The translations under genes and the position numbers were made by a program. Shown one piece after another: positions 3,121-39,779 of a DNA stretch of 47,106 nt. The stretch is from Bdellovibrio sp. (GTDB lineage: Bacteria > Myxococcota > SpSt-1050), in NCBI GenBank assembly GCA_020725805.1, contig DYEF01000045.1, positions 1 to 47,106 of the forward strand. Reading direction: 5' to 3'. Position 1 is the stretch's first letter, and each line of letters starts with the position of its first letter. The notes below the pieces were generated by a model that was given only the letters and a program-made list of their open reading frames with translations, was not told the origin of the DNA and made no database searches.

Positions 3121-4317
3121 ATGGCTTTTGAAAGGTCAATAGAGGAGATTAATGAAAAAATAAGATGCGGGAATGTCGTTGTGGCAACTGCCGAAGAGAT
3201 TTTATCTATGGCAGAATCTGACGGGTATGAGAATACCTTCAGAAAGGTGGATGTCGTAACCACCGGGACCTTCGGACCTATGTGCTCGACAGGGGCATTC
3301 CTGAATTTCGGACATTCTGACCCGCCTATAAAGATGCAGAAGGTCTGGCTCAATGATGTACCTGCGTATACAGGTATTGCCGCAGTTGATGCCTATATCG
3401 GGGCGACCGAACTCTCTGAATCGAGAGGATTTGAGTACGGAGGTGCACACGTAATCGAGGACTTAATTGCTGACAAACCCGTCAGACTGAGGGCAACCTC
3501 GTATGGCACCGATTGCTATCCCCTCAGGGAGATCGAGACGTATATCAATCGTCAGATGCTGAATCAGGCGTATATCTTTAATCCCAGAAATGCATATCAG
3601 AATTATACGGTTGCAATAAATACATCAGACAGGACGATTTATACATATATGGGTATTCTCTATCCGAAAATGGCGAATGCAACCTATTGCTCTGCCGGTC
3701 AGCTCAGCCCGCTCCTGAATGACCCGTTTTATGAAACAATCGGGATTGGTACAAGGATATTTCTCGGAGGAGCTCAGGGATATGTTGCATGGGAGGGGAC
3801 ACAGCATTCACCGTCAGTTGCAAGAAATGAGAAGGGAATTCCCATTGGAGGGGCAGGCACGCTTGCGGTGATAGGGGATATAAAGAAGATGAACAGGCGG
3901 TATATGAGGGCGGCCGTTTTTGAGAGATACGGCGTCTCGATGTATGTAGGGCTCGGGGTTCCGATTCCGGTAATAAACGAAAAGATTTTCAGAAATGTGC
4001 TTGTAAGAGACGAGGATATACAGGTACCGGTGCTGGATTATTCTGTAGGACGGAGGAAGAGACCAGCTCTTGGAATTGTTAATTATAAACAGTTGCGCTC
4101 GGGTTCTGTCGTAATTCAGGGGAGGGAGGTAAAGACGGCTCCTATATCAAGTTACAAAATGGCACGTGAAATCGCCACGGAACTGAAAAAGTGGATACTT
4201 AAGGGAGAATTCTTTCTGAGCAATTATGTACAGCCCCTTCCGAAAAATCAGAATGTGAAACCGCTTGAAATCAGAGACCTTGAGGATTTAGAGGTGGAAT
4301 ATGAAAAAAACCGCTAA
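3121..4317 (+). CDS. Homocysteine biosynthesis protein (COG1900/DUF39), L-aspartate semialdehyde sulfurtransferase
   Basis: A 398-residue protein of the DUF39 family, which in methanogens helps convert aspartate semialdehyde and sulfide-derived sulfur to homocysteine. Visible family signatures are TTGTFGPMCSTGAFLNFG with Cys55, TSYGTDCYPL with Cys132, and the long GIGTRIFLGGAQGYVAWEGT stretch, which is slightly shortened here. The two cysteines correspond to the catalytic pair I recall for Methanosarcina MA1821 (numbered one lower there). No CBS domains follow, unlike the methanogen enzyme. The end overlaps the next gene by 17 nt, so the products are probably translated together. The start is supported by GGGAG nine bases upstream and by the promoter at 3067. 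Confidence 0.9.
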   Translation: MAFERSIEEINEKIRCGNVVVATAEEILSMAESDGYENTFRKVDVVTTGTFGPMCSTGAFLNFGHSDPPIKMQKVWLNDVPAYTGIAAVDAYIGATELSESRGFEYGGAHVIEDLIADKPVRLRATSYGTDCYPLREIETYINRQMLNQAYIFNPRNAYQNYTVAINTSDRTIYTYMGILYPKMANATYCSAGQLSPLLNDPFYETIGIGTRIFLGGAQGYVAWEGTQHSPSVARNEKGIPIGGAGTLAVIGDIKKMNRRYMRAAVFERYGVSMYVGLGVPIPVINEKIFRNVLVRDEDIQVPVLDYSVGRRKRPALGIVNYKQLRSGSVVIQGREVKTAPISSYKMAREIATELKKWILKGEFFLSNYVQPLPKNQNVKPLEIRDLEDLEVEYEKNR

Positions 4318-4747
4318 AAAGGCAGAAAGAAGGCAGATTTTCAGAAAGCGTGTGATGCTTACTTTTTCCCAGAAACTTGTCGGTCAGCCCGTAATGTACA
4401 GACTGATTAAGGAATATGATGTGGCCGTCAATATACTTTTTGCAAAGGTACTTCCCAATGAGACCGGAAAACTCGTGGTTGAGTTTTCTGCCTCAGATGA
4501 AAAGAGACTCAATAAAGGTATTAATTTCCTGAAATCACTCGGGGTCAGGATTGAACCCATCAGCAAGGAGATTGTCAGGGATGAGGAGAACTGTATAGAC
4601 TGCGGTGCCTGTACCTCAGTTTGCCGTTCTGGGGCACTCTCCATTGACAGAAAAAGCTTTGAACTCGTCTTTGATCAGGAAAAATGTGTCCTCTGCGAAA
4701 TGTGCATTCACGCCTGTCCTATGAAGGTAATAAATATTTCGTTCTGA
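4301..4747 (+). CDS. NIL-domain ferredoxin, partner of the homocysteine sulfurtransferase
   Basis: A 148-residue protein with an N-terminal NIL-type ligand-binding domain (about 15-85) and a C-terminal 2[4Fe-4S] ferredoxin. The cluster motifs are CIDCGACTSVCRSG and CVLCEMCIHACPM. It corresponds to the NIL/ferredoxin protein (MA1822 in Methanosarcina) that works with the COG1900 protein in sulfide-dependent homocysteine synthesis. It likely delivers electrons or sulfur during the sulfur transfer. It overlaps the upstream gene by 17 nt and its TGA overlaps the ATG of the next gene (ATGA-type junction). The Lys/Arg-rich first 20 residues are not part of the NIL domain, so a start slightly downstream cannot be excluded. 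Confidence 0.88.
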   Translation: MKKTAKKAERRQIFRKRVMLTFSQKLVGQPVMYRLIKEYDVAVNILFAKVLPNETGKLVVEFSASDEKRLNKGINFLKSLGVRIEPISKEIVRDEENCIDCGACTSVCRSGALSIDRKSFELVFDQEKCVLCEMCIHACPMKVINISF

Positions 4748-7639: not shown

Positions 7640-8305
7640 ATGTTATCAGGTATTTTAGGAAAAAAAGCAGGAATGACCACTCTTTTTGATGAGTACGGGA
7701 ATGCCCACAACGTTACGGTTATAGTAGCCGGACCCTGTACGGTGGTAAACAAGAGAACACTTGAGAAAGACGGTTATGCCGCTCTTCAGCTTGGTTATGA
7801 GACCGAGAAGCAGAAGAATCTTATTAAACCGGCCGAGGGATATTTCAGGAAGCAGAATGTAGCTCCTCAGAAATACCTCAGGGAATTCAGAATCGACAAG
7901 TCGGCTCTCGAAACATACCAGATAGGTCAGGAGATAAAGGTAGAGACCGTTTTCGGCAAAGGCGATTTTGTGGATGTTACGGGTACAACGAAGGGCAGGG
8001 GTTTTGCCGGTGTTATGAAGAGGTGGAACTTCGCGGGTTTTCCGATGACAAGAGGTACACACTTCTACAGAAGGCACCCCGGTTCGATAGGTAACAGAGA
8101 ATGGCCCGGAAGAGTTATGAAAGGCAAGAAGATGGCCGGCCATTACGGTAACGAACAGGTAACAATCCAGCATCTCAGGATCTATAAGATCGACCCCAAG
8201 AACAACCTCATCTATGTGGAGGGCGCGGTTCCGGGTCCGGCAGGTGAACTTATTGAAATCAGAAAGTCAGTTAAGAAGGCTGTCAAACATAAGCACAAGC
8301 ACTGA
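7640..8305 (+). CDS. rplC: 50S ribosomal protein L3 (uL3), outside its usual operon
   Basis: A 221-residue L3 protein, a primary assembly protein of the large subunit near the peptidyl transferase centre. Family features are MLSGILGKKAGMTTLFDE, TKGRGFAGVMKRWNF, RHPGSIGNREWPGRVMKG and VYVEGAVPG-like text near the end. The loop that is often GQNQTPG in other bacteria reads GNREWPG here, so the usual PrmB-methylated glutamine position appears changed. The C-terminus ends in an unusual KHKHKH tail. No rplD, rplW or rpsJ flanks it: eno is upstream and an outer-membrane protein gene is downstream. GGAGG stands before the ATG, and a hairpin follows the stop codon. Confidence 0.96.
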   Translation: MLSGILGKKAGMTTLFDEYGNAHNVTVIVAGPCTVVNKRTLEKDGYAALQLGYETEKQKNLIKPAEGYFRKQNVAPQKYLREFRIDKSALETYQIGQEIKVETVFGKGDFVDVTGTTKGRGFAGVMKRWNFAGFPMTRGTHFYRRHPGSIGNREWPGRVMKGKKMAGHYGNEQVTIQHLRIYKIDPKNNLIYVEGAVPGPAGELIEIRKSVKKAVKHKHKH

Positions 8306-8419: not shown

Positions 8420-9148
8420 ATGAACAAATTGTATCCCGCCATCCTTTCCCTGCTGCTGATAGTTATTTTGTCCGCAACCGCATTTGCAGGTGAAAATGAG
8501 AGTATAAGGGCACTGCAGAACAAGGCATATCCGCTCAATATGAAACTCGAACTCAGTCTTGGCGGAGGAATCTCCATCGCCGACAGATATTCGCAGTCGA
8601 TACCTGCGGGCGGAGAGATTATATTCCATCCGTTCGATTTTCTCTCGCTGGGTGGTTTCTTCCTTTATACAAAGAGTTCGGAGACCAGCCTATCAAAGGA
8701 GCTCAGAAAACAGAGTCTCAGTGCCGACGAGCCGGAAAGGACAAGGACCAAATGGATTACGGGCGGTGAGATACTGATTTATCCTATTTACGGAAAGTTC
8801 AGCCTCTTTTCCGAGATTGCATTTAACTATCACATATATATAGGCGGCGGCGGCGGTGTCGGCAACATCGTGGTTACGAACTATTCGAATGATACCGAAA
8901 AGAGCTACGGTACAAAACCCGTTTATACAATTGCCGGAGGAGTTCAGACTCACCTTTTCAGATTCGGAGAAAAGAAAAACAAATATCTGGATTTCAAGGT
9001 CGAGGGCAGATATTTCGGTTATACAGTTGACGCTGACAAGGAATGGCTCGATGCAGAGATTGCAAAGGGCAGGCCGTCTGATGCCATATCGAATTCAGCG
9101 CAGCACAGACTCGTACTTACAATGGCATATCTCTCATTCCTCTTTTAA
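8420..9148 (+). CDS. Outer-membrane beta-barrel protein, GltA/GltB-like
   Basis: A 242-residue exported protein. The signal peptide MNKLYPAILSLLLIVILS, with cleavage near AFAG, is followed by alternating short hydrophobic strands and Gly-rich turns such as LELSLGGGISIADRYSQ and FDFLSLGGFFLYTKS. The chain ends on LTMAYLSFLF, so a terminal aromatic residue of barrel type is present. It opens a gene block whose order resembles the Myxococcus glt and nfs clusters, where small barrels (GltA, GltB, GltH) form the outer-membrane part of the complex. The assignment rests on context, and sequence alone shows only a barrel. AGGAGG precedes the ATG. The next gene follows after 15 nt. Confidence 0.75.
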   Translation: MNKLYPAILSLLLIVILSATAFAGENESIRALQNKAYPLNMKLELSLGGGISIADRYSQSIPAGGEIIFHPFDFLSLGGFFLYTKSSETSLSKELRKQSLSADEPERTRTKWITGGEILIYPIYGKFSLFSEIAFNYHIYIGGGGGVGNIVVTNYSNDTEKSYGTKPVYTIAGGVQTHLFRFGEKKNKYLDFKVEGRYFGYTVDADKEWLDAEIAKGRPSDAISNSAQHRLVLTMAYLSFLF

Positions 9149-9163
9149 TTGCGGAGGTATGTG

Positions 9164-10744
9164 ATGAGAAAAATATCATTATTTGTTATCCTGTTCCTGC
9201 TTCTTTCTTCCGTTCTGTATGCGCAGAAGAAGGAGGAGGAACTTAAGCTCTCTGCCTCTGTCAAAAAAATTATTGATGAGTATAACTCCGGCAACTATAT
9301 ATCGGCAGCCTACAAATTCTTTGATGTTTACGAAAATGATACAAATCAGGCAAACCAGCTCGCTGCCGAATATTTTGTAGGTTCATCACTTGCCAAGATA
9401 GGCCTTTACGGACCGTCGGTATATTTCTTTGCGAGTATTCTTAAGACCGGTGCAAATCATCCCTTTTACCTGAAGGCGATTGAAGGTCTGGCAGATGCGG
9501 CACAGAAGCTCAAGGATGACCTCGTCATTCCGGAACTTCTGCTGAGATATTATTCCCCCGAATTCCAGAAGCTCCCTCCCGAGACGCTCAACCATATCAA
9601 TTATCTCATCGGGGAACTCTCTTTCAGGAAGGGAAGGGTTGCCGAGGCAGAGAAGTTTTTTGACGTCATCGGAAAGGACAGCAGATACTTCTACAAGGGC
9701 CTTTATATCAAGGCAATTCTGAGAGTCAGGTCACAGAAGATCGAAGAGGCCAACGAAATATTTTCCGAAATATTTAATGCAATTCCATTTAAGGAAGGGA
9801 AACTTGTAAAGGATACAAAACTTGTTGTGGACAAAGATATCCTTCAGGTCAGGAATCTGGCAATTATGGGTCTGGCTCGTAATTACTATGAACTCGGAAT
9901 GTATCAGGAATCGGCAAAATACTATGAAATGATCGAGAGATTCGATACCGAATGGCTGGATGCGGTATTCGAAGGCGGCTGGACATATTATCAGCTGAAG
10001 GATTACGGAAAGGCAATCGGGGCAACCCATACGCTGCTTGCTCCGGGATACAGGGAACAGTTCTTCCCCGAGACATATATTCTCAGGGCAACGGTCTATT
10101 TCGAAAACTGTCTTTATGATGAGGCAAAGGATACACTCGAGGAATTTTATAAAAGGTACAAGGATATGCCGGACAAACTCAAGCCGGTCATTTCCGATTC
10201 ATCCAAATCCCCTGAGTATTATTTCGATATGATGATAAGCGCCTCGATTTCGGAAAAGACCGATATCCCGCAGGAGCTGAGGAAATACCTCCTTAAAAAC
10301 CCGAGATTACAGAAGTTTATATATTTCATTCTGGAACTCGACAAAGAGAATGATATGGCAGGCAAGATAGGTTCATTCAAGGATTCCCGTATCGGTAATT
10401 TTATTAAAGGCAATATCCGTCAGCAGAGGGAACTGCTAGTAAAGATTGTAGGAAAGTGGATTCAGATAAGACTTATCGACCTTCACGATTCCCTTATTGA
10501 CTTTCTCAATCAGGCTCAGCTGATCGATTTCGAAACAGTCAATGCCCAGAGGAAACAGCTCCAGTCAACCGGAGAACAGCAGGAAGCAAAGCAGGGTGCG
10601 GCGGCAGCTCCGGCCAAGAAATCAAAGCTCAAAAGGCCTCAGATTGATTCCGATAAGGTTGATTTCTGGGATTTTGATGAGGAGTACTGGAAAGATGAAT
10701 TGGGGTATTATTTTTATACACTAAGAAACGAATGTAAGAAGTGA
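9164..10744 (+). CDS. Periplasmic TPR protein, GltC-like
   Basis: A 526-residue protein with signal peptide MRKISLFVILFLLLSSVLYA cleaved near YAQ. Most of the chain is made of helical TPR-type repeats, for example NYISAAYKFFDVYEND, YYELGMYQESAKYYEMIERF and YYQLKDYGKAIGATHTLL. A Lys/Ala/Gln-rich linker (about 460-490) leads to an acidic aromatic end, FWDFDEEYWKDELGYY. By size, repeats and position next to a barrel gene it resembles GltC of the Myxococcus gliding complex. I chose the ATG at 9164 with GGAGG at 9153-9157. A TTG at 9149 would add five residues and put the binding site inside the gene. Its TGA overlaps a GTG of the next gene. Confidence 0.75.
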   Translation: MRKISLFVILFLLLSSVLYAQKKEEELKLSASVKKIIDEYNSGNYISAAYKFFDVYENDTNQANQLAAEYFVGSSLAKIGLYGPSVYFFASILKTGANHPFYLKAIEGLADAAQKLKDDLVIPELLLRYYSPEFQKLPPETLNHINYLIGELSFRKGRVAEAEKFFDVIGKDSRYFYKGLYIKAILRVRSQKIEEANEIFSEIFNAIPFKEGKLVKDTKLVVDKDILQVRNLAIMGLARNYYELGMYQESAKYYEMIERFDTEWLDAVFEGGWTYYQLKDYGKAIGATHTLLAPGYREQFFPETYILRATVYFENCLYDEAKDTLEEFYKRYKDMPDKLKPVISDSSKSPEYYFDMMISASISEKTDIPQELRKYLLKNPRLQKFIYFILELDKENDMAGKIGSFKDSRIGNFIKGNIRQQRELLVKIVGKWIQIRLIDLHDSLIDFLNQAQLIDFETVNAQRKQLQSTGEQQEAKQGAAAAPAKKSKLKRPQIDSDKVDFWDFDEEYWKDELGYYFYTLRNECKK

Positions 10745-10752
10745 GTGTAAAG

Positions 10753-13700
10753 ATGAAGAGAGTATTTTTTATTGTCAGTCTTATTATTTCATTTTGCTTT
10801 ATTGCCTCCGTTTTAGCGTTTTCCGACCTTTATGCACAGGAGACCAAGACAGAGAAGAAAGATAAAAAAGGGAAGGCCTCCCAGGAGAAAGAGGAGAAGA
10901 AGAAGACGACTCCGACAGGCCCGGCCAAGATAGATATGCCAAAACCCGAGGAGAAGGAAGTCTCGAGAGATGAACTTGCCGACAAGAAACGGGATGAGGC
11001 AATAAAAATGCTGAAGGACATTATCACCCGCTTTGAGAAGGGCCCGAAGAAAGCCGATGTTATGTTTCAGCTGGCCGAACTCTACTGGGAAAAATCCAAA
11101 TATGTGTATTTTCAGGAAATGTATGAGTATGAAAAGAAACTGGATGAGTGCAATAAGAAGACAAAGGACCTGAAGGCCTGCGAGAAGATAAAAATCAATA
11201 CAAGACAGTCTGAACTCTACAGAAAACAGGCACTCGATATTTATGAGAAAATCATAAAGGAATATCCGGATTATCCGAGAAAGGATGAGGTGCTTTTCGT
11301 CCTTGGCTACAACCTCTACGAGATGGGGAAGAAGAACGAAGGCGTCAAATACTATTGGGAACTTATCAAAAAGTATCCGAAGAGTAAGTATGCCCCCGAT
11401 GCATATCTTTCACTCGGCGAACACTTCTTCAACAACAATGAGGTATTCAAGGCCGTTCAGGCTTATGAGAAAGCGCTTACATTCAACGACCCGAAAATTA
11501 CGGTGGTTTCACTCTACAAGCTTGCATGGTGTGATTACAACCTCGGCGAATATGAAAAAGGTATCGAGAAGCTGAAACAGGTTATCGGTTATGCACAGAA
11601 GGAAGGAGACAAGAGCAAGATCAGACTCGAGAGAGAGGCAATGAACGACCTCGCGCTCTTCTTCTCTCAGGTTGACGCGGTTGATGAGGCAAAGGATTAC
11701 TGGGAGAAGGTGGCGGGAAGACAGAAACTCAAGGACCTTTTGAAACTGCTTGCAAAGGTTTATGACGATCAGGGTAAATACGACCAGGCAATCAAGACTT
11801 ACAGACTCGTAATCAACGAATACCCCAATGCACCGGAGTGTCCGGAGTTTCAGAGCAATATAGTCCAGAACTACAAAAAGCTCAACAACACAGAGATGGT
11901 CAAGAAGGAGATCAGAAGACTGGTCGACCTTTATAAGCCAAACTCCCCATGGGCAAACCAGAATGCAGAGAACAAGTTTGCACTTGAGAAGGCATACGAG
12001 CTGACCGAAGAGGCCTTAAGGGATATCGTTCAGGAGTACCACAGGGAAGCCCAGAAGACAAAGGACGTAAAGACCTATGCTCTGGCAAGGGATATTTACA
12101 AGGAGTATCTTGACAACTTCCCCAAGGCAGAACACTCCTATTCGATGAGGTTCTTCTACGCAGAGATTCTGTGGGCGTTGCAGGAGTACGAGAATGCGGC
12201 AATAAACTATGCGCTTGTCGTAAAGCAGGACCCGAAAGGCAAGTATTCGGTTACATCGGCCTACAACAGGGTTCTGGCTTATGAAAAGATGGTTGAGATA
12301 ATGGAGAAAGGACAGAAGGCTGAGACCCTGAAGGAAGGTAAGGTGGACGAGAAGAAGAGCAAGGGTGCAGTAAAGAGAGTGGAAAAGTTCATCAAACTTG
12401 AAAAAGGAAAGACCTACGAGAAGAAGGAAATTCCCAAGATAGAACTTGAGCTTGCAAAGGCCTGTGATGAGTTTACACAGCTTGCTCCCAATCATAAGGA
12501 ATTCTTTGCGGTCAAATTCAAGGCAGCCACCATATATTATAAATACAACCACTTTGATGAGGCCTCAAAGAGGTTCGGTGAGTTTATCGAAAAATTCCCG
12601 GACAACAAGTTTGCACTCGGTGCATCCGATATGATTCTCAACTCCTATGAGATCAAGGAAGACTGGGCGAGCCTCTTTTTCTGGGCAAACAAATTCATCA
12701 ACATAAAGCCGCTTGCCTCACAGAAGGACCCGGCAGAGAAGAACAAACTGTATCAGGCCCACCTTCAGGAGGTTGTTGAAGGTTCGGCATTCAATATCAT
12801 AATAGATATGCAGAAGAAGGGTAAGACCCTTGATGCCGCAGTTGCATTCAGGGATTATGTCAATAAATATCCTCAGGCAAAACATACCGACAAGGCACTT
12901 AACAACGCCCATATTCTATTTGCCGAGGCAAAATATATTGATAAGGCAATTGAGGCAGCATCACTGCTCATTGATAAATTCCAGAAATCGGAGTTCTATG
13001 AGCCTACTTTCTACAAACTCGGGTATTACTACGAAAAGATTGCCGATTTCAGCAATGCCAGCAAATACTATGAAATTTACTTTGATAAGCTGAAAAAGAA
13101 GAATAAAGAGGCCGGTGACGCTATTTACAATGCGGCACTTTTCAGGGAAGCAACAGGAGACCTGAAGGGCGCTATCGCAAATTATCAGACCTATATAAAG
13201 GCATTCCCGACAAACAAGGATATTATACAGGTTCAGATGAAGATTGCCGCAATCTACAACGAAATGAAGGACTATGAAAAGGCAAAAGCCATATACAAGG
13301 GGATTGTTGCAAAACCGAAGGACGTCTCAATCTCCGATGTCATCGATGCCCAGTACGAAATGGCAATGATATACAAGAAACTGGGGCAGATACCTGCATA
13401 CGAGAAGGAACTCCAGACACTTCTGAAGATGGCAGAGAAACTCAAAAAAGGCGATGCCAGCGAAAAGACATTTTACTATATTGCAAACTCCAGATTTTTA
13501 CTCACAGACTCCGCTTTCAAAAACTATATGGCTCTCAAATTACAGCTCCCTGAGAGCACAATGAGAAAGCAACTCAAGGAGAAGACCGAGAAACTGGATA
13601 AGCTGGTAAAGGAATACACGGCGATTCTTCAGATGGGACAGGGCGACATCGGTATTGCAGCACTCTGCCGGATTGGTATGATCTATCAGGATTTCACAAA

Positions 13701-14151
13701 GACCCTGCTCGAGGCCCCGATTCCGAAAAACCTCAATGATGAACAGAGAGAAATCTATGTCGCCGAGCTTCAGAATATGGCATTCCCGGTAGAAGAAAAG
13801 GCTATCGAGGCCTATGAGAAGAGCCTCGCAAAGTCATACGAACTTACGATTTACAATGAATATTCAAAGATTGCACAGGAGAGACTCGACGGATACAAAC
13901 CGGGTTCGTATCCGGATTTGCCGGAGACAAGATATGTTGCCAAGGAGTATTTTTACGGACAGCTCTTCTATCCTTCGCTGATTGCAAAGGCTCCGGAACC
14001 TCCGAAACCGCCGGAGACAAAGAAGGAAGAACCGAAGAAGGAAGAAAAGAAGGAGGAGAAGAAAGAGGGTGAGGAGGAGACCGGCAAGGAATCGGGTTCA
14101 GGAGATGAATCTTCCGAACCGCAGGAAAATGAAAAAACACCTGAGGAATAA
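10753..14151 (+). CDS. Giant TPR periplasmic protein, GltD/AgmU-like
   Basis: A 1132-residue exported protein. Signal peptide MKRVFFIVSLIISFCFIA is followed by a Lys/Glu-rich linker (about 28-80) and then by a long series of TPR repeats covering roughly 85-1050, such as EVFKAVQAYEKALTFND, GKYDQAIKTYRLVINEYP and GDLKGAIANYQTYIKAFP. The last 60 residues are a Pro/Glu/Lys tail. Length, location and repeats match AgmU/GltD (about 1200 residues), the scaffold of the Myxococcus gliding complex that bridges the periplasm. The start is uncertain: GTG at 10741, overlapping the previous stop, would add four residues. I prefer the ATG at 10753 because it gives a normal signal peptide. Confidence 0.75.
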   Translation: MKRVFFIVSLIISFCFIASVLAFSDLYAQETKTEKKDKKGKASQEKEEKKKTTPTGPAKIDMPKPEEKEVSRDELADKKRDEAIKMLKDIITRFEKGPKKADVMFQLAELYWEKSKYVYFQEMYEYEKKLDECNKKTKDLKACEKIKINTRQSELYRKQALDIYEKIIKEYPDYPRKDEVLFVLGYNLYEMGKKNEGVKYYWELIKKYPKSKYAPDAYLSLGEHFFNNNEVFKAVQAYEKALTFNDPKITVVSLYKLAWCDYNLGEYEKGIEKLKQVIGYAQKEGDKSKIRLEREAMNDLALFFSQVDAVDEAKDYWEKVAGRQKLKDLLKLLAKVYDDQGKYDQAIKTYRLVINEYPNAPECPEFQSNIVQNYKKLNNTEMVKKEIRRLVDLYKPNSPWANQNAENKFALEKAYELTEEALRDIVQEYHREAQKTKDVKTYALARDIYKEYLDNFPKAEHSYSMRFFYAEILWALQEYENAAINYALVVKQDPKGKYSVTSAYNRVLAYEKMVEIMEKGQKAETLKEGKVDEKKSKGAVKRVEKFIKLEKGKTYEKKEIPKIELELAKACDEFTQLAPNHKEFFAVKFKAATIYYKYNHFDEASKRFGEFIEKFPDNKFALGASDMILNSYEIKEDWASLFFWANKFINIKPLASQKDPAEKNKLYQAHLQEVVEGSAFNIIIDMQKKGKTLDAAVAFRDYVNKYPQAKHTDKALNNAHILFAEAKYIDKAIEAASLLIDKFQKSEFYEPTFYKLGYYYEKIADFSNASKYYEIYFDKLKKKNKEAGDAIYNAALFREATGDLKGAIANYQTYIKAFPTNKDIIQVQMKIAAIYNEMKDYEKAKAIYKGIVAKPKDVSISDVIDAQYEMAMIYKKLGQIPAYEKELQTLLKMAEKLKKGDASEKTFYYIANSRFLLTDSAFKNYMALKLQLPESTMRKQLKEKTEKLDKLVKEYTAILQMGQGDIGIAALCRIGMIYQDFTKTLLEAPIPKNLNDEQREIYVAELQNMAFPVEEKAIEAYEKSLAKSYELTIYNEYSKIAQERLDGYKPGSYPDLPETRYVAKEYFYGQLFYPSLIAKAPEPPKPPETKKEEPKKEEKKEEKKEGEEETGKESGSGDESSEPQENEKTPEE

Positions 14152-14172
14152 ATTATGAGAGGTAATATAGTG

Positions 14173-15924
14173 ATGGAAAAGAGATTTTTTTATTTCATTT
14201 TAATCGGGTTGCTTGTATTTGCCTTTGGTTGTCCGCCCAAGAAAGTTGAAGCTCCGACTGATAAACAGGTTAAAGTTGCTGAATCTTTACCGGAAGATGA
14301 CTTTGCAAGGGGAGTACAGCTTTATAATCAGGGTAATTACTCCGAGGCGATTAAGGCATTTTCAGATGTGGTCAGAAAAGACCCGAAAAATTTCAAGGCA
14401 TATCTGAATCTTGCATCGATTCAGATGAAGATGGAAAATATTCCGGAGGCACTTTCGTATTGTGATAAGGCAATTAATGCCGACCCCGCAAGTGTTGAAC
14501 CGGTTCTTGCCAAGGCGCTGGTTTACAAGAACACCGGAAAATACAACGAAGGTGTAAAGTTTCTGACTGATATGCTGAAGAAATTTCCGAACAACAGTAA
14601 AATTCTGAATAATATAGCCGTCTTTCACAGACTCAACAAGGAATATCAGAAGGCAGAGGCTGTTATCAGAGAGCTTCTCGCACGGGACCCCGACAATGTC
14701 GAGGCTTATAAGAACCTGTCTCTTATTTATTATGATCAGGGTAATTTCAAGCTTGCGAAGCTGACTCTCGGGAATGCAGGTAAACTTGACCCGAAAGATG
14801 CTTCGATAAGAAACAATCTCGGAATGATTGCACTGAAAATGGATGATTATGTGTCGGCAATGGGTTACTTCAGAATTGCACTTGAACTTGACCCGAATAA
14901 TGTAGAGGCGCATCAGAATCTGGGTACAATAGCATTGCACTTCAAGGATTATAATGCTGCATTTTCACATTTTAAGGTTATAGCCACTCTTGAGCCGCAG
15001 AATGAAAACGCACATTTTCAGCTTGCTCTGACATTGATTGGTCTACAGAAGCCTCAGGAGGCTATGAACAAACTTGATGAGGTTTTGAAGCTTAACCCTA
15101 AAAAATATGAGGTTCTCTATTATCAGGCCTTCGTAAATCATACTTACCTCAAGAAGGTTGATGAAGCTATCGACCTTTATAAGAAGTTTGCCTCATCTGC
15201 CACCAAGGATAATGAACTTAAGCAGAAGGCAGTTGCTATGATTGCAAAACTCGAGGAACAGAAGAAGCAGGCAGAGATACAGAAGAAGATGCTGGAGGAA
15301 CAGGAAAAGAAGATGAAGGAGGAGGAGGCAAAACGTAAGGCAGAGGAAGAGAAGAAGAAACAGATGGAAGCCAAGTTCAAGGAATTATTCGATAAGGCAA
15401 ATACTGATATGTCCGAAGGCAAACTTCAGGAAGCTAAGAATAATCTTACTGAATGTCTGAAAATCAATCCGGAAAGCAAAGAGGCAAAGGCAAAACTGAA
15501 GGAAGTCGAAGATAGGATCAAAGAAGAAGAGGCAGCTAGGAAGAAAGCTGAGGAAGAGGCCAAAAAGAAGGCCGCCGAGGAGGCAAAGCAGAAGGCAGAG
15601 GAAGAGGCCAGGCTGAAGGCTGAGGAGGAGGCAAAAAAGAAGGCAGAAGAAGAGGCGAAGAAGAAGGCGGAGGAAGAGGCCAAAATGAAGGCTGAGGAGG
15701 AGGCGAAGAAGAAGGCAGAAGAAGAGGCCAAAATGAAGGCTGAGGAGGAGGCAAAAAAGAAGGCCGAAGAGGAAGCCAAAAAGAATGCTGAAGAGGAGGC
15801 CAAAAAGAAGCAGGAAGAAGAAAAGAAGCCGGATTCAGGAGGAGAAAATACAACCTCTGAACCAAAAGAAAAACCGACCGAACCCGCTAAAACAGAAGGT
15901 TCAGAAAAGACAGAGAGTAAATAA
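14173..15924 (+). CDS. TPR lipoprotein with Lys/Glu single-helix tail, GltE/AglT-like
   Basis: A 583-residue lipoprotein. MEKRFFYFILIGLLVFAFGC gives a lipobox FGC with Cys20 lipidated. About seven TPR units follow (40-340), for example GVQLYNQGNYSEAIKAFSDV and NLGMIALKMDDYVSAMGYF. Then comes a charged helical stretch, one more TPR-like unit (FDKANTDMSEGKLQEAKNNL) and twelve octapeptides of the KKKAEEEA type, and finally an acidic Ser/Thr/Pro tail. The Lys/Glu helix resembles the periplasm-spanning segment of TolA. Its place between the giant TPR protein and the small exported protein matches gltE (aglT). The ATG at 14173 was chosen. An in-frame ATG at 14155 would add six residues and weaken the signal peptide. 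Confidence 0.8.
   Translation: MEKRFFYFILIGLLVFAFGCPPKKVEAPTDKQVKVAESLPEDDFARGVQLYNQGNYSEAIKAFSDVVRKDPKNFKAYLNLASIQMKMENIPEALSYCDKAINADPASVEPVLAKALVYKNTGKYNEGVKFLTDMLKKFPNNSKILNNIAVFHRLNKEYQKAEAVIRELLARDPDNVEAYKNLSLIYYDQGNFKLAKLTLGNAGKLDPKDASIRNNLGMIALKMDDYVSAMGYFRIALELDPNNVEAHQNLGTIALHFKDYNAAFSHFKVIATLEPQNENAHFQLALTLIGLQKPQEAMNKLDEVLKLNPKKYEVLYYQAFVNHTYLKKVDEAIDLYKKFASSATKDNELKQKAVAMIAKLEEQKKQAEIQKKMLEEQEKKMKEEEAKRKAEEEKKKQMEAKFKELFDKANTDMSEGKLQEAKNNLTECLKINPESKEAKAKLKEVEDRIKEEEAARKKAEEEAKKKAAEEAKQKAEEEARLKAEEEAKKKAEEEAKKKAEEEAKMKAEEEAKKKAEEEAKMKAEEEAKKKAEEEAKKNAEEEAKKKQEEEKKPDSGGENTTSEPKEKPTEPAKTEGSEKTESK
15538..15825 (+). repeat. Twelve tandem 24-bp coding repeats (KKKAEEEA octapeptides)
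   Basis: Within the GltE-like gene twelve consecutive octapeptides follow the pattern K-x-K-A-E-E-E-A, varying at the second residue (K, Q, L, M). The DNA units of 24 bp are nearly identical but carry synonymous changes. The alternation of Lys and Glu blocks suggests a stable single alpha-helix rather than a heptad coiled coil. Confidence 0.85.
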
Positions 15925-15932
15925 TAATGAAT

Positions 15933-15964
15933 TTGTGGAATTTTTTATCCGTTTTTGATATAAT
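15933..15964 (+). promoter_or_regulatory. Internal promoter with extended -10 before the GltF-like gene
   Basis: TGATATAAT at 15956-15964 is an extended -10 element (TG-N-TATAAT). TTGTGG at 15933-15938 is a weak -35 at 20 nt from TATAAT. The next ATG is 22 nt downstream, with GGGAGG at 15974-15979. Confidence 0.55.
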
Positions 15965-15985
15965 TATTTGTGTAGGGAGGTAATT

Positions 15986-16252
15986 ATGAAGAGAATCCTC
16001 TTTTTGTGTGCATTTTTAACTCTGTTATTGGCTTTTTCGGCAGTATCTTCTGGTCAGGAGGCTGGTTCCGGTGATAAGGTTGTCTATAAACAGAAAACAA
16101 TCATCGATTTCTCTGATGTTACTATTCAGGGTGAACTGAAAAAACCTGACGGGTCATATATATCATCCAGAAAAGAGGCTCAGTTCGGCAGACTTATTAA
16201 AGTCAGGGAAAATTTTGAGCCGGAACTTTTCAAGTCTGTGGATAAGTTATAA
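15986..16252 (+). CDS. Small exported protein, GltF-like
   Basis: An 88-residue protein with signal peptide MKRILFLCAFLTLLLAFSAV, probably cleaved near SSGQ. The mature part contains VVYKQKTIIDFSDVTIQGEL and ends in ELFKSVDKL. Small proteins of this kind, with an IDFSD-type core, sit just before the FHA/AgmX-type protein in glt and nfs clusters, where the gene is called gltF. That placement is from memory and was not searched. The start at 15986 follows GGGAGG. An upstream GTG at 15968 would add six residues without improving the signal peptide. Confidence 0.7.
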   Translation: MKRILFLCAFLTLLLAFSAVSSGQEAGSGDKVVYKQKTIIDFSDVTIQGELKKPDGSYISSRKEAQFGRLIKVRENFEPELFKSVDKL

Positions 16253-16275
16253 ACCTTCATTAAAGTGAGGTTAAA

Positions 16276-18006
16276 ATGAAATACAGATTTTTAGTGAAAT
16301 TTCCTGACGGTAAAGAGGATATTTTCGAACTGGAGAAGGATAGCATAATTATCGGTTCCTCCACAGCAGCGAATATCCAGCTTGAATCTGAGAGTGTCAG
16401 CGCCCTTCATTGTATGGTAAGGGTAAACAAGGAAGGCAATTTCAATATAATGGATATGGGTTCGAAGACCGGTATCTTCGTAAACGGGGAGAAGGTCAAG
16501 GAGAAGACACTGGCAAAAGGTGATGTCGTCAAAGTCGGAGATTTTGAGATTCAGCCTCTCTATGATGAGAAAGCATCAGAGCAACCCAAGGAGAACGTAA
16601 AAAGCGACAAGCCCAAACCGCCTGTGAAGAATGTTGTTAAGAAGGTGACGAAAAAGAAAAGAAGGATTCCGGCCGATTCACTTAATATGTATGTATCACC
16701 CAAGAAACTTGAGGAAGACAAGGCCGATGAGTCCAATAAGGTTCCTGATGTCATTGTGAGATGGCTCGGAGGAATGATTGGTGAACTGGCCATTATCGGC
16801 AAAAGGACGGAGATTACGATAGGTTCAACTGAGCAGAACGATTTCGTCATCCCTGAAGAATATCTTAAGGCCGATAAGTTTCAGCTTGTAACACAGGATG
16901 GTTCATCGCATACCGTAAATATTCCGGAAGGCTGGGAACTGATTCATTTTGTTGATGGCAAGAAGAGTTCATCCGATGCAAAGAAGAGTGTTTCTCTCAA
17001 GCTCAATGAAGTTATAGTATTGAAGAATGGTCCGATAGATATCATAGTCAGGTATATTCATCCGAAGAGTGCTCCCAAGGAGAATTTCCTCAGGAGTATG
17101 GATTACAGATTTGCCCAGTGGCTTATCTCGTCTGTTCTTTTTGTTGCAATTGCACTCTTTATAATGGTTGTCTTTTTCAAGGATACGCTTACATCTCCTC
17201 CGGATGACCTTCAGAAGAGTCTCAACCGCTTTGCAAAAGTGGTTCTGAAAGAGGCTCCGAAGAAGGTTGAAAAGAAGGAACTCGAGATGAAGGCGATAAC
17301 TGAGAAGAAGATCGGAAAGGTAATAGATGAAAAACGTCCTCCTGTCAAAGGTCCGAATATTGCTGACCCGAACAGAAGAGTGGAAAACAGAAAGGTCGCA
17401 TTGAAGTCCGGAGTCCTTGGAATTCTGAGAGGGGCAGGAGGTAATCCGGCTATGAATTCGATCTTCGGTGCCGGTCTTGGTGCGGGTATTAATAATGCCC
17501 TTGGCGGTCTCCACGGTACAATGATGGGAGATTCCGGCGGTCTCGGCGGACTTGGTTCGAGAGGCGGCGGAGGCGGCGGCGGTGTTGCAGCGCTTGGCGG
17601 CATCGGAATCGGTGGCGGTAAGAGCAGGAGAGGGCACGGAGATTTCAATCTCGGGGCCGGAGGAAAATCCGAAGAGGCGGTTTCTACAGGTAAACTCGTG
17701 ATGGTCGGCGGTCTCGATAAGGATGTTGTGGCAAGGGTAATCAAGAGATACTGGGCGCAGATAAAATACTGTTATGAAAAGGAACTCAGCAAGAACCCGA
17801 ATCTCTATGGTAAGATTGCGGTCAAGTTTACTATATCCGGCAATGGTTCTGTCTCTGATGCAGAGATCGAACAGACCGAGATGAATAACGCCGCAGTTGA
17901 AGACTGCATTGTCAGAAATATCAAGAGATGGATGTTCCCTGCTCCGAAGGGCGGCGGTATTGTTGTGGTCAGGTATCCGTTTATATTCAAGAGCGCCGGG
18001 CAATAA
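16276..18006 (+). CDS. FHA-domain, single-TM, AgmX/PglI C-terminal protein, GltG-like
   Basis: A 576-residue protein. Residues 1-95 form an FHA domain (IIGSSTAANIQLES, ALHCMVRVN, SKTGIFVNGEKV), which binds phosphothreonine and should be cytoplasmic. A second, divergent FHA-like domain spans about 160-265. One membrane helix lies near 281-301 (LISSVLFVAIALFIMVVFF). Then come a Lys/Pro-rich periplasmic stretch, a Gly-rich linker (about 389-462) and an AgmX/PglI-type, TonB-like C-terminal domain (479-576) with YWAQIKYCYEKEL, GKIAVKFTI and FPAPKGGGIVVVRYPF. This architecture is that of PglI/GltG of Myxococcus. The protein could pass a phosphorylation signal or mechanical force across the inner membrane. 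Position before a second barrel gene fits gltG-gltH order. Confidence 0.88.
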   Translation: MKYRFLVKFPDGKEDIFELEKDSIIIGSSTAANIQLESESVSALHCMVRVNKEGNFNIMDMGSKTGIFVNGEKVKEKTLAKGDVVKVGDFEIQPLYDEKASEQPKENVKSDKPKPPVKNVVKKVTKKKRRIPADSLNMYVSPKKLEEDKADESNKVPDVIVRWLGGMIGELAIIGKRTEITIGSTEQNDFVIPEEYLKADKFQLVTQDGSSHTVNIPEGWELIHFVDGKKSSSDAKKSVSLKLNEVIVLKNGPIDIIVRYIHPKSAPKENFLRSMDYRFAQWLISSVLFVAIALFIMVVFFKDTLTSPPDDLQKSLNRFAKVVLKEAPKKVEKKELEMKAITEKKIGKVIDEKRPPVKGPNIADPNRRVENRKVALKSGVLGILRGAGGNPAMNSIFGAGLGAGINNALGGLHGTMMGDSGGLGGLGSRGGGGGGGVAALGGIGIGGGKSRRGHGDFNLGAGGKSEEAVSTGKLVMVGGLDKDVVARVIKRYWAQIKYCYEKELSKNPNLYGKIAVKFTISGNGSVSDAEIEQTEMNNAAVEDCIVRNIKRWMFPAPKGGGIVVVRYPFIFKSAGQ

Positions 18007-18030
18007 ACACTTTTTGAAAGAGGTAAAGTT

Positions 18031-18597
18031 ATGTTCAGAAAGACAGTTATTTTTCTTCTGTTTACCTTTGTATTTTCTTCATTTCTTTATGCGGCCGAGC
18101 CTTACAAGGGGCTGTCAAGTGAAATCAATCCCGGGATATTATTTACAATAGGCGGTAATAAGAGCAATTCAAATTCAGAGCCATTCTTCAATTTTATTCT
18201 GGGTTATTCATTCAGCAAGTCGAGTATGGCAGGTCTCTCCCTTTCGGCGTCGATGGTCTCGAATAATGCCGTGGAGAAGAAGACGGGAGATATTGAAAAA
18301 GACCGTCTTAATTATGATAATTTTACACTTACTTTTATGAATGTTGCCTATCAGTATAAAATCGGTGTTGGACCCGAACTTTTTGTGCCTGTCAAGGTAT
18401 TTGGAGGCGGAGCAATAGCATCTCCGGTACCAAATAATAAAGGTTCATTTCTGCCCGATTTCGGACTTGCAACCGGTATAGGTTATGATTCATACAGAAA
18501 AGGGCTGCAGCTTGGCGTCGAATTTGCATTCAGTTATATACTTAATATTAATGCAAAAGCGGCTATGATATATCCCACGATTAAGTATGTCTTCTGA
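18031..18597 (+). CDS. Outer-membrane beta-barrel protein, GltH-like
   Basis: A 188-residue exported protein. The signal peptide MFRKTVIFLLFTFVFSSFLYA is followed by AEPYKG. The mature chain alternates short hydrophobic strands with Gly/Asn turns (FNFILGYSFSKSSMAGLSLS, LGVEFAFSYIL) and ends in TIKYVF with a terminal Phe, as outer-membrane barrels do. It is 24 nt downstream of the FHA/AgmX-type gene. In the Myxococcus gltDEFGH cluster the corresponding last gene encodes the porin-like GltH. The role is inferred from this order. Confidence 0.7.
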   Translation: MFRKTVIFLLFTFVFSSFLYAAEPYKGLSSEINPGILFTIGGNKSNSNSEPFFNFILGYSFSKSSMAGLSLSASMVSNNAVEKKTGDIEKDRLNYDNFTLTFMNVAYQYKIGVGPELFVPVKVFGGGAIASPVPNNKGSFLPDFGLATGIGYDSYRKGLQLGVEFAFSYILNINAKAAMIYPTIKYVF

Positions 18598-18679
18598 ATA
18601 TATTGGATAAATTTTTTTCAGATTTGTTGCTTTATAATTTAGTAATACAACACGCTGCAGGTTGGAAGAATCGGGTCAA

Positions 18680-19498
18680 ATGAATATCAAGGGTTTTAAT
18701 GATTTTATGCTGAATATTACCAAATCCTACATACTTGATAAACTGCGTGTAAGCGACCCGAAGAAAGTAGAGATAGAACTTAAGAGAAGAATAAAGGAAG
18801 ATGAATATCTCAAAATAACCAAATATTTTCAGAAAAACAGCAAGGTAAAACAGATAAAGACCAATGTTTTTATTGATCAGTTTCTTGATACCGGGGATTT
18901 CAGGATATTTCACTCAGGTGCAAGCCTCAGACTAAGATATAAGGGGAACGGGAAGAATGTCTATCTTCAGTATAAGGGGGGCGGTTTTGTATTGAATAAT
19001 GTATTGTTCAGGTCTGAATTCTCTTCGAGGAAAATATCACATCTTGTGAAAGAGGAAGGTCATAGGGATATTATTCAGTTTAACGAAAAGAGTTTTATGT
19101 GGATTCTCAATAATGCCGTCGAGGAGGATATGAGGAAGGCGATGTATGACCATCTGGGGTCAAGGGTCATACGGAATATTAAGACCGGGCCTGTTATATG
19201 TTTTTATAAGAAAATCAAGTATGAATATAACATCGACGACGACATATATCTTGAACCTTCTTTGGATTTTCTTAGTGCATTTCATATAAAGAGCAATTCC
19301 TTTCATCCGATGTCGAGTTTATATGAATACGAAAACGAGATTAAATCCCGGAAGAACGACCTGATCCTAAAACTCAAGAGTATCTCGCAGCTACTGGATT
19401 TCGAAGGGGTTATCAATAAAATGGTCAGACCGGATTATGAATGCAATGATAAATATCACAGAATTATGAGCTATTTTGTTAAAAAGGCTGTGCATTAA
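18680..19498 (+). CDS. CYTH/VTC-like triphosphate tunnel protein next to polyphosphate kinase
   Basis: A 272-residue protein with the ExExK hallmark of the CYTH (triphosphate tunnel metalloenzyme) superfamily, EIELK at residues 31-35. Basic strand motifs such as SLRLRYKGNGKNVYLQYKGG and later acidic residues could line the tunnel. Members hydrolyse inorganic triphosphate or, as in VTC4, make and bind polyphosphate. The substrate here is not known. It lies 73 nt upstream of ppk and 2.1 kb upstream of sixA on the same strand, suggesting a polyphosphate role. The start is uncertain: ATG at 18680 was chosen, and TTG at 18662 would add six residues. Confidence 0.7.
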   Translation: MNIKGFNDFMLNITKSYILDKLRVSDPKKVEIELKRRIKEDEYLKITKYFQKNSKVKQIKTNVFIDQFLDTGDFRIFHSGASLRLRYKGNGKNVYLQYKGGGFVLNNVLFRSEFSSRKISHLVKEEGHRDIIQFNEKSFMWILNNAVEEDMRKAMYDHLGSRVIRNIKTGPVICFYKKIKYEYNIDDDIYLEPSLDFLSAFHIKSNSFHPMSSLYEYENEIKSRKNDLILKLKSISQLLDFEGVINKMVRPDYECNDKYHRIMSYFVKKAVH

Positions 19499-19571
19499 AG
19501 CGGTTTTAACTGATATTTAATTATATATTAACAATGATTTTGTATCTTAATGTGCGGGTGGTGAGGTGTAT

Positions 19572-21626
19572 ATGAGCAGTGACCAGATTAAATTGCTGTT
19601 TAACAGGGATTTAAGCTGGTTGTCATTTAACAACAGGGTTCTTGACGAAGCGGCCGATGAATCTGTTCCCCTTCTCGAAAGACTGAGATTCCTGACTATT
19701 GTCAGTTCCAACCTCGATGAATTTTTTAAGGTCAGATTTGCAGAATTGTCAAAATTGTTCAGAAAGTATCCCACAAAGAGATTATCTGACGGGTATCCGC
19801 TCAGTCGTGTGATTTTTCAGGTAAGAGAGGAAGTTGTAAGACAGAAGAACAGGCAGGCGGAGCTTTTCAATATTGTTATGAATAAATTGAGAACCGAAGG
19901 ACTTATGCTCCATTATGAATACAGCAGTTTAAATGATGAAATTGATGAACAGGTCAGAAAACAGCTTCCGAATCTAAATATAGTAATCAGAAAACTCAAT
20001 GAACCTATGCCCGAACTCAAAAGTGAGACAATCTATATTTATGTCAGATTTGTTGATGAGTATGCAGTTATAGGCTTTGATACCACAGATAAGAGGCTGA
20101 TTAAGGTAGAGGATAATGATTACAGATTATCTTTTGTATTGCTTGAAAGGTGGCTTCTTGCACATATAAAACAGTATTTCCCGGGCAAAGAAATAATTGA
20201 GACGTTTCCCTTCAAGATTATCAGGGAACACGACCTCCCTTATGAATTCGATGATGATTCTATGGAAGGTTTTATCGAAAAAAGCAGAAACAGCGGCCGT
20301 CTTCCGAGGGTTGTCCGTCTTGAAGTGGATTCTCCATTATACCCAGAAGGCGCAATTTTTATCTCAACAATTCTAAGGATAGACCCGGTTTCCATTTACA
20401 GGTTCAGTATACCGCTTAATCTCAAATCACTGAATAGTATTCTGAATTATGAAGGGTTTGAACATCTGAAATATCCGAAGATTACACCGGCAGTACCTGT
20501 CCCTTTCAAAAAACCCGGCAAGATAATAGATATTATAAAAAAGCATGATGTGCTTTTGCATCATCCGTATGACTCTTTTGATATCGTTGTCAATTTTATC
20601 AAGGAGGCGAGTATAGACCCGGAAGTAACGGATATATATCACGTGATATACAGGGCGGGTGAAAAGTCGGAACTCCTTGAATATCTGAAACAGGCAGCAA
20701 GTTCAGGAAAGAATGTGTCGGTATATGTGGAAATCAAGGCAAGGTTTGACGAAAAGACCAATCTAAAATGGATAAAAGAACTTAAGAGCGCAAAGGTGAA
20801 GGTAATCCCCCCTTTGAGAGACAAGAAAGTACATAGCAAGGTGACACAGGTTGTTAAGAATATCAATAGCAGGAAATATTATTATACCCACCTCGGAACC
20901 GGCAATTATCATCCTACTACAACGAGACTCTATACCGACCTCGGATTACTTACATCCAATCAGGAGATAGGGGAAGAAGTCCATACATATTTCAGCAGGC
21001 TTGCAGAAAGTAAGAAGGTGCCGTATTTAAGGCACTTGCTGGTTGCACCTGCAAATCTGAGGACCGGTATATTACGGCTGATAAGGAATGAAATCAAAAA
21101 TCATATTAAATACGGCAATGGTCTGATTATAGCCAAGATGAATTCACTTGTTGACCCGGATATCATAAGTGCGCTCTATAACGCATCGATGAGCGGGGTG
21201 AAAATCTATCTTATTGTAAGAGGAATCTGCTGCCTGAAGCCCAATATCAAAGGTATAAGCGAGAATATCAGTGTTACGAGTATTATTGACAGGTTTCTCG
21301 AACATTCCAGAATCTTCTATTTTTATGCAAACGGGGAGGAGAAGGTCTATCTTTCGAGTGCTGACTGGATGCCGAGAAATTTCTACAACAGGTATGAAAT
21401 AGCCTTTCCTGTCTACGACCAGCTCCTGAAAAGATACGTTAAGGATGTCATCCTCTCTACGGCACTTGCTGATAACGTAAAGGCAAGGATATTACAGCCG
21501 GACGGCAGCTACTTAAGGGTAAAACCTGCTCAGGGCGAAAAAATAATAAGGTCTCAGTTTCAGTTTGTTTCACTGGCTGAGAGTTCGTATAAGGGTACTA
21601 TACTGGAAAGTCGTATAGATAATTAA
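19572..21626 (+). CDS. ppk: Polyphosphate kinase 1
   Basis: A 684-residue PPK1, which reversibly makes polyphosphate from ATP. Signatures are FNRDLSWLSFNNRVLDEA at the start, HHPYDSFDIVVNFIKEAS, the catalytic region with VYVEIKARFDEKTNLKW, KVHSKVTQVV and THLGTGNYHPTTTRLYTDLG, and SADWMPRNFYNRYE near the end. The four-domain length is normal. GAGGTG seven bases before the ATG supports the start at 19572. A GTG at 19566 would overlap that ribosome site. It lies between a CYTH-type protein and SixA. Confidence 0.96.
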   Translation: MSSDQIKLLFNRDLSWLSFNNRVLDEAADESVPLLERLRFLTIVSSNLDEFFKVRFAELSKLFRKYPTKRLSDGYPLSRVIFQVREEVVRQKNRQAELFNIVMNKLRTEGLMLHYEYSSLNDEIDEQVRKQLPNLNIVIRKLNEPMPELKSETIYIYVRFVDEYAVIGFDTTDKRLIKVEDNDYRLSFVLLERWLLAHIKQYFPGKEIIETFPFKIIREHDLPYEFDDDSMEGFIEKSRNSGRLPRVVRLEVDSPLYPEGAIFISTILRIDPVSIYRFSIPLNLKSLNSILNYEGFEHLKYPKITPAVPVPFKKPGKIIDIIKKHDVLLHHPYDSFDIVVNFIKEASIDPEVTDIYHVIYRAGEKSELLEYLKQAASSGKNVSVYVEIKARFDEKTNLKWIKELKSAKVKVIPPLRDKKVHSKVTQVVKNINSRKYYYTHLGTGNYHPTTTRLYTDLGLLTSNQEIGEEVHTYFSRLAESKKVPYLRHLLVAPANLRTGILRLIRNEIKNHIKYGNGLIIAKMNSLVDPDIISALYNASMSGVKIYLIVRGICCLKPNIKGISENISVTSIIDRFLEHSRIFYFYANGEEKVYLSSADWMPRNFYNRYEIAFPVYDQLLKRYVKDVILSTALADNVKARILQPDGSYLRVKPAQGEKIIRSQFQFVSLAESSYKGTILESRIDN

Positions 21627-21649
21627 CCTTTATTCGGAAGGGTTATGAT

Positions 21650-22165
21650 ATGATAATTATTTTTGTTAGGCACGCTACTGCAATGGATAAGAAAAAATTT
21701 GCAAAGTCGGGTAATCCTGACAGTGAGAGACCTCTGACTGCGAAGGGGCTCAAGGACATAAACAGAATCGGGAAGATTCTGAAAAAACATATTATTGAAA
21801 AAGTAGATGTAATATATTCAAGTCCGTATAAGCGTGCGATGCAGACTGCCGAGGTCCTTTCCGGAATATATAAGAAAGACATCAAAAAGGCTGAGTTTTT
21901 GTCTGCGGACGAAACAGATTACAATCAGATGCTCTCACTTCTTTTAAAACAGCCGAATAAAAGCGTTATTATTATGGTCGGGCATAATCCTTCACTGGGA
22001 AACCTTATAGGAAAACTCGTTGTGAACAGACCTGTTCCTGTTGTCAGCCTCGACAAGTCAGGAGTGGCTGTTGTCAGGCTGGAAAAGGGCGGGAGCAGGA
22101 TAAAGAGTGTCGAACTTGTATGGATTCTAAGGGCTGATGTGTTGAAGAAAATGTGTCTCGGTTAA
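21650..22165 (+). CDS. sixA: SixA-type phosphohistidine phosphatase
   Basis: A 171-residue histidine phosphatase superfamily protein. The RH motif is in FVRHATA (Arg7-His8), the second arginine in YSSPYKRAMQTAEVL, and the second catalytic His in MVGHNPSLGNLI. SixA removes phosphate from phosphohistidine in signalling or PTS proteins. Pairing with ppk is a recurring arrangement in other bacteria, as I recall it. GGAAGGG precedes the ATG. Its TAA overlaps the stop codon of the convergent GlcNAc-kinase-like gene inside a shared TTAA. Confidence 0.9.
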   Translation: MIIIFVRHATAMDKKKFAKSGNPDSERPLTAKGLKDINRIGKILKKHIIEKVDVIYSSPYKRAMQTAEVLSGIYKKDIKKAEFLSADETDYNQMLSLLLKQPNKSVIIMVGHNPSLGNLIGKLVVNRPVPVVSLDKSGVAVVRLEKGGSRIKSVELVWILRADVLKKMCLG

Positions 22166-36424: not shown

Positions 36425-36427
36425 AGG

Positions 36428-37312: not shown

Positions 37313-37318
37313 TCTGAA

Positions 37319-39316: not shown

Positions 39317-39332
39317 AGAGAGGTATAATACT

Positions 39333-39779
39333 ATGTCAGATTCAAGTTTTGAACCGAAGATTGTGGCATTTGTCTGTAACTGGTGTACTTATACCGGTGC
39401 AGACCTTGCCGGTACTTCAAGGATGAAATATCAGTCGAATGTGAGGATGATCAGACTCCCCTGTACCGGGAGAATAGACCCGATGTTTATTATCAAGGCC
39501 TTCGAGTCCGGTGCAGACGGTGTTCTCGTGTCCGGCTGCCATCCCGGGGATTGCCATTATACCGCCGGCAATTATCACGCACGGAGAAGATGGATTCTCT
39601 TCAGGCAGCTTCTGAAATTCGTAGGGATAGACGAATCCAGAGTCTTCTTCTCGTGGGTCTCTGCCTCCGAGGGGAAAAAGTGGGTAGATGTTATCAATGA
39701 GGTTACAGATACGGTCCGCAGCAAAGGTCCGTTCACGAATTACCAGAAACTTAATAAGGAGTTTACAATAAATGGCTGA
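39333..39779 (+). CDS. mvhD: MvhD/FlxD-type iron-sulfur protein
   Basis: A 148-residue protein of the MvhD (FlpD) family with [2Fe-2S]-type cysteines. The motifs are AFVCNWCTYTGADLAG, RLPCTGRIDP and VSGCHPGDCHYTAGN. MvhD links an electron donor, either a hydrogenase or the NADH-oxidising Flx subunits, to HdrA. The end overlaps the next gene by 8 nt. With no MvhA/MvhG hydrogenase beside it, the FlxD role is more likely. Confidence 0.92.
   Translation: MSDSSFEPKIVAFVCNWCTYTGADLAGTSRMKYQSNVRMIRLPCTGRIDPMFIIKAFESGADGVLVSGCHPGDCHYTAGNYHARRRWILFRQLLKFVGIDESRVFFSWVSASEGKKWVDVINEVTDTVRSKGPFTNYQKLNKEFTING

Follow-up and report, generated by a model that had tools for sequence, protein, structure and literature searches.

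A well-supported orthologue of the Myxococcus xanthus nfs cluster in an uncultured order of Myxococcota

Introduction

The closest described relatives of the gene cluster analysed here are two paralogous systems of Myxococcus xanthus: Nfs (nfsA-H, MXAN_3371-3378), so far known only as a sporulation device, and the Glt gliding complex (G1+G2). The Agl motor, whose AglR subunit binds NfsG, transports Nfs directionally along the Exo polymer of the spore coat (PMC3858216). Each system has two mutually stabilising barrels, which in Nfs are NfsA and NfsB (PMC4488436), and gliding involves the vWA adhesin CglB (PMC12288465). The G4 and G5 clusters (MXAN_1922 and MXAN_1327) are further paralogues of the same kind, and the order of gliding and sporulation events was left open (PMC3169522). 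According to Wartel et al. (PMC3858216), glt and nfs duplicated recently, within a terminal deltaproteobacterial branch. No survey of Nfs across Myxococcota was found in the literature searched, with subscription reviews outside its scope.

Herein, we describe an nfs-type cluster in a 47,106-nucleotide stretch of DNA (the window), which is part of a 3.29 Mb metagenome-assembled genome (MAG) that is 98% complete. The M. xanthus AM003 genome (G195) served as the reference. Its contig C31 carries a locus (L174) with ORFs of 294, 439, 520, 1286, 535, 96, 744 and 200 aa in the order A-H; since these match the published nfsA-H lengths (294, 442, 512, 1202, 499, 94, 682 and 200, where 1202 and 94 follow a start correction; PMC2875238), the locus was taken as nfs. 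Contig C23 of the reference carries gltA-B-C and contig C144 carries gltF-G-H-I-J.

Organization of the cluster

Seven consecutive ORFs occupy positions 8420-18597 on the + strand, with intergenic gaps of -4 to +61 bp. The first (8420..9148, +) encodes an NfsA/NfsB (GltA/GltB)-type outer-membrane barrel of 242 aa with a signal peptide, which scored 56.7 bits against TIGR04565, under the cut-off of 60. Its AlphaFold model has 8 strands (pLDDT 82) and matched the OmpA, OprF, OmpX and NspA barrels in Foldseek; the barrel is predicted to be 8-stranded and OmpA-like. It is followed by an NfsC (GltC)-type periplasmic TPR protein (9149..10744, +; 525-531 aa; NF033756 236 bits, E 7e-70) and by a giant NfsD (GltD)-type TPR protein (10741..14151, +; 1136 aa) with a hydrophobic segment at its N-terminus. 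The HMM scan of the window proteins returned no NCBIfam model for GltD. In direct comparison it scored 672 bits with NfsD of M. xanthus, versus 295 bits with the GltD of the window's own genome, and the 672-bit match lies far above generic TPR similarity.

The fourth gene (14155..15924, +) encodes an NfsE (GltE)-type TPR protein of 589 aa (NF033758 131 bits; 124 bits to M. xanthus NfsE), whose N-terminal FAFGC is consistent with a lipoprotein signal and whose tail is rich in Lys, Glu and Ala. A small exported protein of the NfsF (GltF/CglF) type comes next (15986..16252, +; 88 aa; NF033764 81 bits; 74 bits to M. xanthus NfsF); a PHROGs search with it gave no match. The NfsG (GltG)-type protein (16276..18006, +; 576 aa; NF033760 308 bits, NF033768 120 bits, PF00498 59 bits) is predicted to be the motor-coupling subunit. 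It retains the layout needed for that task: a cytoplasmic FHA domain, one transmembrane segment (about 277-295), a Gly-rich periplasmic stretch and an AgmX/TonB-like C-terminal domain. The last gene (18031..18597, +) encodes a predicted outer-membrane barrel of the NfsH (GltH/CglE) type, 188 aa with a signal peptide (NF033755 60.6 bits; 57 bits to M. xanthus NfsH), and its structural model, built on six sequences, consists of putative strands only, at low confidence (pLDDT 52).

The same seven genes stand in the same order in SKW273 (G001; L028/L034), an independent MAG of the same genus. All seven are 71-91% identical in amino acids between the two MAGs, while synonymous sites are saturated. 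Thus, the cluster is genuine and evolves under purifying selection. Misassembly was ruled out by the identical order in the independent MAG. An earlier note, made from the window alone, had recognized seven same-strand Glt/Nfs-like genes of the right type and order, and the HMM matches, the GltD comparison and the order in SKW273 all bear this out. Neither of the outcomes that would have spoken against it, generic TPR matches only or another gene order in the related genomes, was observed: the profile matches exceed generic TPR similarity. Its list of gene types needs two amendments, namely the placing of the CglF gene at 15986-16252 and the presence of one A/B-type barrel versus two in NfsA-H.

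No second A/B-type barrel was found in the window cluster, which contains one TIGR04565 match. Genome-wide, TIGR04565 barrels number two in each of the genus's two genomes, one per cluster, compared with five in G167, the only other genome of the window's order found, and six in M. xanthus. These counts point to a genus-level reduction to one barrel, unless the second has diverged past detection. Because NfsA and NfsB of M. xanthus stabilise each other, assembly with one barrel must differ from that in M. xanthus. As the barrel loss lies inside an otherwise orthologous cluster, we regard the cluster as a reduced orthologue. The single-barrel form also offers a smaller complex for structural work.

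Relationship to Nfs and Glt

We compared the cluster with both M. xanthus systems. In trees of GltC, of GltD and of the C+D+G concatenation, the window cluster falls with M. xanthus nfs (support 97/93, 91/87 and SH-aLRT 99, respectively), while the glt-type paralogues, including a second cluster on contig C16 of the same MAG, form a separate clade (100/99, 99/99 and 100). The window GltC and GltG do not group with M. xanthus GltC and GltG but fall in the sister clade. The profile scores agree in direction: all five proteins with a Glt equivalog match fall below its cut-off (GltC 236<450, GltE 131<225, CglF 81<90, GltG 308<650, CglE 60.6<70), and only the generic AgmX C-terminal domain (NF033768) passes its own. 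The GltC, CglF, CglE and barrel of the C16 cluster, in contrast, exceed the Glt model cut-offs. A Glt (gliding) identity of the window cluster was ruled out by the trees together with these scores.

The second line of evidence is positional. The gene for ribosomal protein L3, rplC (7640..8305, +), lies upstream of the cluster and encodes no component of the machine. It is single-copy in 10/10 genomes tested. In the window, SKW273, G167, M. xanthus, G058 and G005, rplC is immediately upstream of the nfs-type cluster on the same strand, at a distance of about 55-325 bp. It lies some 4 kb from the nfs-type cluster in G163, and does not adjoin it in G015 and G182. The rplC-nfs arrangement is a conserved chromosomal address in several families, and the conservation of this flank in relatives provides independent positional evidence for the nfs identity. 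The earlier note had listed rplC as a flanking gene; that flank proves to be single-copy, directly upstream and conserved. As shown by trees and position, the window cluster is the orthologue of M. xanthus nfsA-H; the C16 cluster is that of glt.

The window cluster thus resembles M. xanthus Nfs in component types, order, clade and place after rplC, and in having no linked motor and no counterpart of GltI/J/K. It differs in its single GltA/B-type barrel, versus two in M. xanthus, and in its host, whose genome is 3.3 Mb and in whose lineage, to our knowledge, sporulation is not known; the latter counts against the Nfs model. The window GltC is only about 28-37% identical to GltC of families outside its order. 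With the M. xanthus Glt complex the cluster shares the component types A-H, but it is a paralogue: the true Glt of this genome is on C16 and its GltI/GltJ on C97. Two other GltD paralogue loci of M. xanthus (contigs C76 and C209) are presumably G4 and G5. In the GltD tree, neither of them falls beside the window cluster; in the GltC tree, C209 sits weakly at the base of the Nfs side, on a long branch.

Gliding and motor genes elsewhere in the genome

The MAG was searched family by family for further Glt-like systems, motors and gliding parts. The cluster on C16 encodes, in order, a vWA lipoprotein, a barrel, GltC, GltD, GltE, CglF, GltG and CglE. Its first gene (L018:1970-3991) has a lipoprotein-like N-terminus and the MIDAS motif DNSGS; it scored weakly (43 bits) against a Bdellovibrio MIDAS adhesin model, and a Pfam scan of it found nothing. 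Homologues occupy the equivalent place in SKW273, G167 and G015. The protein resembles CglB and is a candidate adhesin. On C97, a GltI of 3502 aa is followed by a GltJ of 726 aa with a zinc ribbon (NF033761 275 bits), and their homologues in M. xanthus are GltI (1184 bits) and GltJ. An MglB-MglA pair lies on C44.

A third system (G000:C9:46058-57796; L019, L030) comprises, in one operon, GltC, GltD, GltE, TolQ, TolR, TolR and a GltG-like protein without FHA, and has orthologues in G167, G015, M. xanthus (contig C76) and the UBP6 genomes. The window cluster shares paralogous TPR and AgmX-domain subunits with this motor-bearing core complex; unlike it, the window cluster has no motor but has barrels, CglF and a GltG with FHA. 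A second TolQ-TolR-TolR trio lies on C67. The ExbB search of the genome found five motors, two of AglR type, which ruled out the candidate explanation that the lineage has no motor. In the ExbB tree, the C9 and C67 motors cluster with two M. xanthus motors, and this AglR-type clade has strong support. Since the C16 glt cluster, GltI-GltJ, AglR-type motors and MglB-MglA are all found, the genome, by its gene content, carries most or all known gliding parts.

These genes change the picture drawn before. The absence of AglRQS and of GltI/J holds for the window but not for the genome, given the motors on C9 and C67 and GltI-GltJ on C97. The description of the host as a probable non-gliding relative is not supported, given a glt cluster with an adhesin-like gene, GltI-GltJ, two AglR-type motors and MglB-MglA elsewhere in the genome.

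With so many gliding parts at hand, the window cluster could itself be a second gliding machine, whose products form focal adhesions, either alongside the C16 Glt or as a substitute for it, and propel the cell. Its component types are those of Glt, and motors, MglAB and GltI/J are present in the genome. However, the cluster is phylogenetically Nfs, not Glt; no vWA adhesin or GltI/J is linked to it, whereas the C16 cluster starts with a vWA/MIDAS lipoprotein; and deletion of nfs in M. xanthus caused no gliding defect (PMC2875238). We consider this reading very improbable.

Age and distribution of Nfs

The phylum of the window also contains Myxococcus-like genomes, as a phylum-wide search showed, and is therefore Myxococcota. 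A GltC homologue is present in 184/195 genomes of the phylum, usually in several copies. Both the Nfs and the Glt clade hold most of the sampled families, and their subtrees are largely congruent. In the C+D+G concatenation, the relative position of the window's order is the same in both clades, which points to vertical descent. We asked how this fits later duplications. In AU tests, each based on a quick tree, forcing the duplication into the Myxococcus-side families lowered the log-likelihood by 695 units (p-AU 5e-78), and forcing it into the lineage of the window itself lowered it by 582 (p-AU 5e-54); both scenarios were rejected. The Nfs/Glt split thus appears to be older than the radiation of the sampled families, contrary to the published recent duplication. 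The earlier note had considered the cluster ancestral or repurposed. In the gene-tree comparison with Myxococcus that it proposed, the cluster groups with nfs and not with glt, and "ancestral" does not hold in the sense of a core predating the duplication: it represents the Nfs branch of an old Nfs/Glt duplication.

When the window GltC was used as a query, matches of at least about 195 bits, the nfs-type range, were obtained in about 26/31 family codes, a count made from scores and not from a tree. They include lineages with genomes of 2.7-5 Mb; in the Anaeromyxobacter-like family f11, GltC is of the lower-scoring type only. This breadth bears on whether the cluster is strictly a spore-coat assembler, as in M. 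xanthus, in an uncultured host that forms myxospores. The operon is orthologous, it has the same chromosomal address and the genome encodes a Wza-type exporter. Against this stands the presence of nfs-type GltC in most family codes, small-genome lineages included, and we know of no documented sporulation in most of the lineages with nfs-type GltC. On this evidence a strict spore-coat role is unlikely.

The UBP6 genomes have one Glt/Nfs-type cluster each. In the rumen bacterium G196 (contig C60; L190/L191), a motor-bearing cluster directly follows the Glt/Nfs-type cluster, within about 2 kb, and this arrangement is possibly close to the ancestral one. The UBP6 cluster joins the window side in the GltD tree, while the GltC and concatenation trees leave its place open.

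Given its age, its wide distribution in the phylum and its frequent location beside rplC, Nfs is unlikely to have been limited to the myxospore coat in its original role. A gliding machine that appears complete is encoded elsewhere in the genome of this uncultured relative with Nfs; Nfs therefore looks like an ancient general-purpose device rather than a late by-product of gliding. The occurrence of both paralogues across families, together with the fixed rplC address, makes the order of gliding and sporulation testable in nfs-bearing relatives without known sporulation. Tentatively, and with more doubt than belief, we propose a broader picture, in which Nfs is ancient across most Myxococcota, stands beside rplC and acts on the surface glycan of growing cells; the spore coat would be a late use, Nfs would work with a single A/B barrel in this genus, and one proton motor would power both machines, Nfs as well as Glt, within a vegetative cell.

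Proposed function

We think it fairly probable that the cluster, as an nfsA-H orthologue with one barrel, encodes a trans-envelope transducer that is driven by a motor in trans and moves or packs exported surface polysaccharide. The products would form a force transducer without a motor of its own. NfsG, through its FHA-TM-TonB-like layout, would couple in trans to a proton-driven TolQ-TolR-TolR motor, that of C67 or C9; NfsC, NfsD, NfsE and NfsF would span the periplasm; and the barrel and NfsH would lie in the outer membrane, holding the surface polymer. Motor strokes would then shift the outer-membrane part laterally, so that exported polysaccharide would be distributed, wound or compacted on the surface. 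Since the cluster lacks linked genes for a motor, an adhesin or a polysaccharide, motor sharing and cargo, like lateral movement, are proposed by analogy with Agl-Nfs of M. xanthus. The genome has one short Wza/OPX-type outer-membrane polysaccharide exporter, on C47, with a Wzy-like gene adjoining. The surface-glycan or envelope-transport role suggested earlier is kept as the favoured guess.

The window complex might instead transport a non-polysaccharide (protein or lipid) across the envelope, or be coupled to the motor-bearing C9 complex, as the position of the single UBP6 Glt/Nfs-type cluster directly before the motor-bearing one (L191; L109) could suggest. Glt and Nfs are, however, the only relatives tested so far, and they act on slime and Exo polymer (PMC3858216); we give this alternative little credence. 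In conclusion, the orthology of the cluster to a known complex is well supported, its host belongs to an uncultured order, and movement of exported polysaccharide is the proposed function of the complex.

Neighboring genes in the window

Directly downstream of the cluster (18662-22165) are genes for a CYTH-domain protein, a polyphosphate kinase (PPK) and a SixA-type phosphatase. The three genes are also downstream of nfs in SKW273; beyond these two, they were not found beside nfs in the other genomes compared. A Ser/Thr protein kinase fused to DUF4388 is encoded at 26059-27735, and might supply phosphothreonine to FHA proteins, NfsG among them. At 35870-46886 is a hydrogen/electron-transfer locus with genes for Hdr-like/FAD-FeS proteins, two Fer4_22 subunits and the large subunit of a NiFe hydrogenase, which suggests that the host is an anaerobe. 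At the other end of the window (3121-4747) lies a gene for an HcyBio homocysteine-biosynthesis protein with its NIL/4Fe-4S partner, a combination known from anaerobes.
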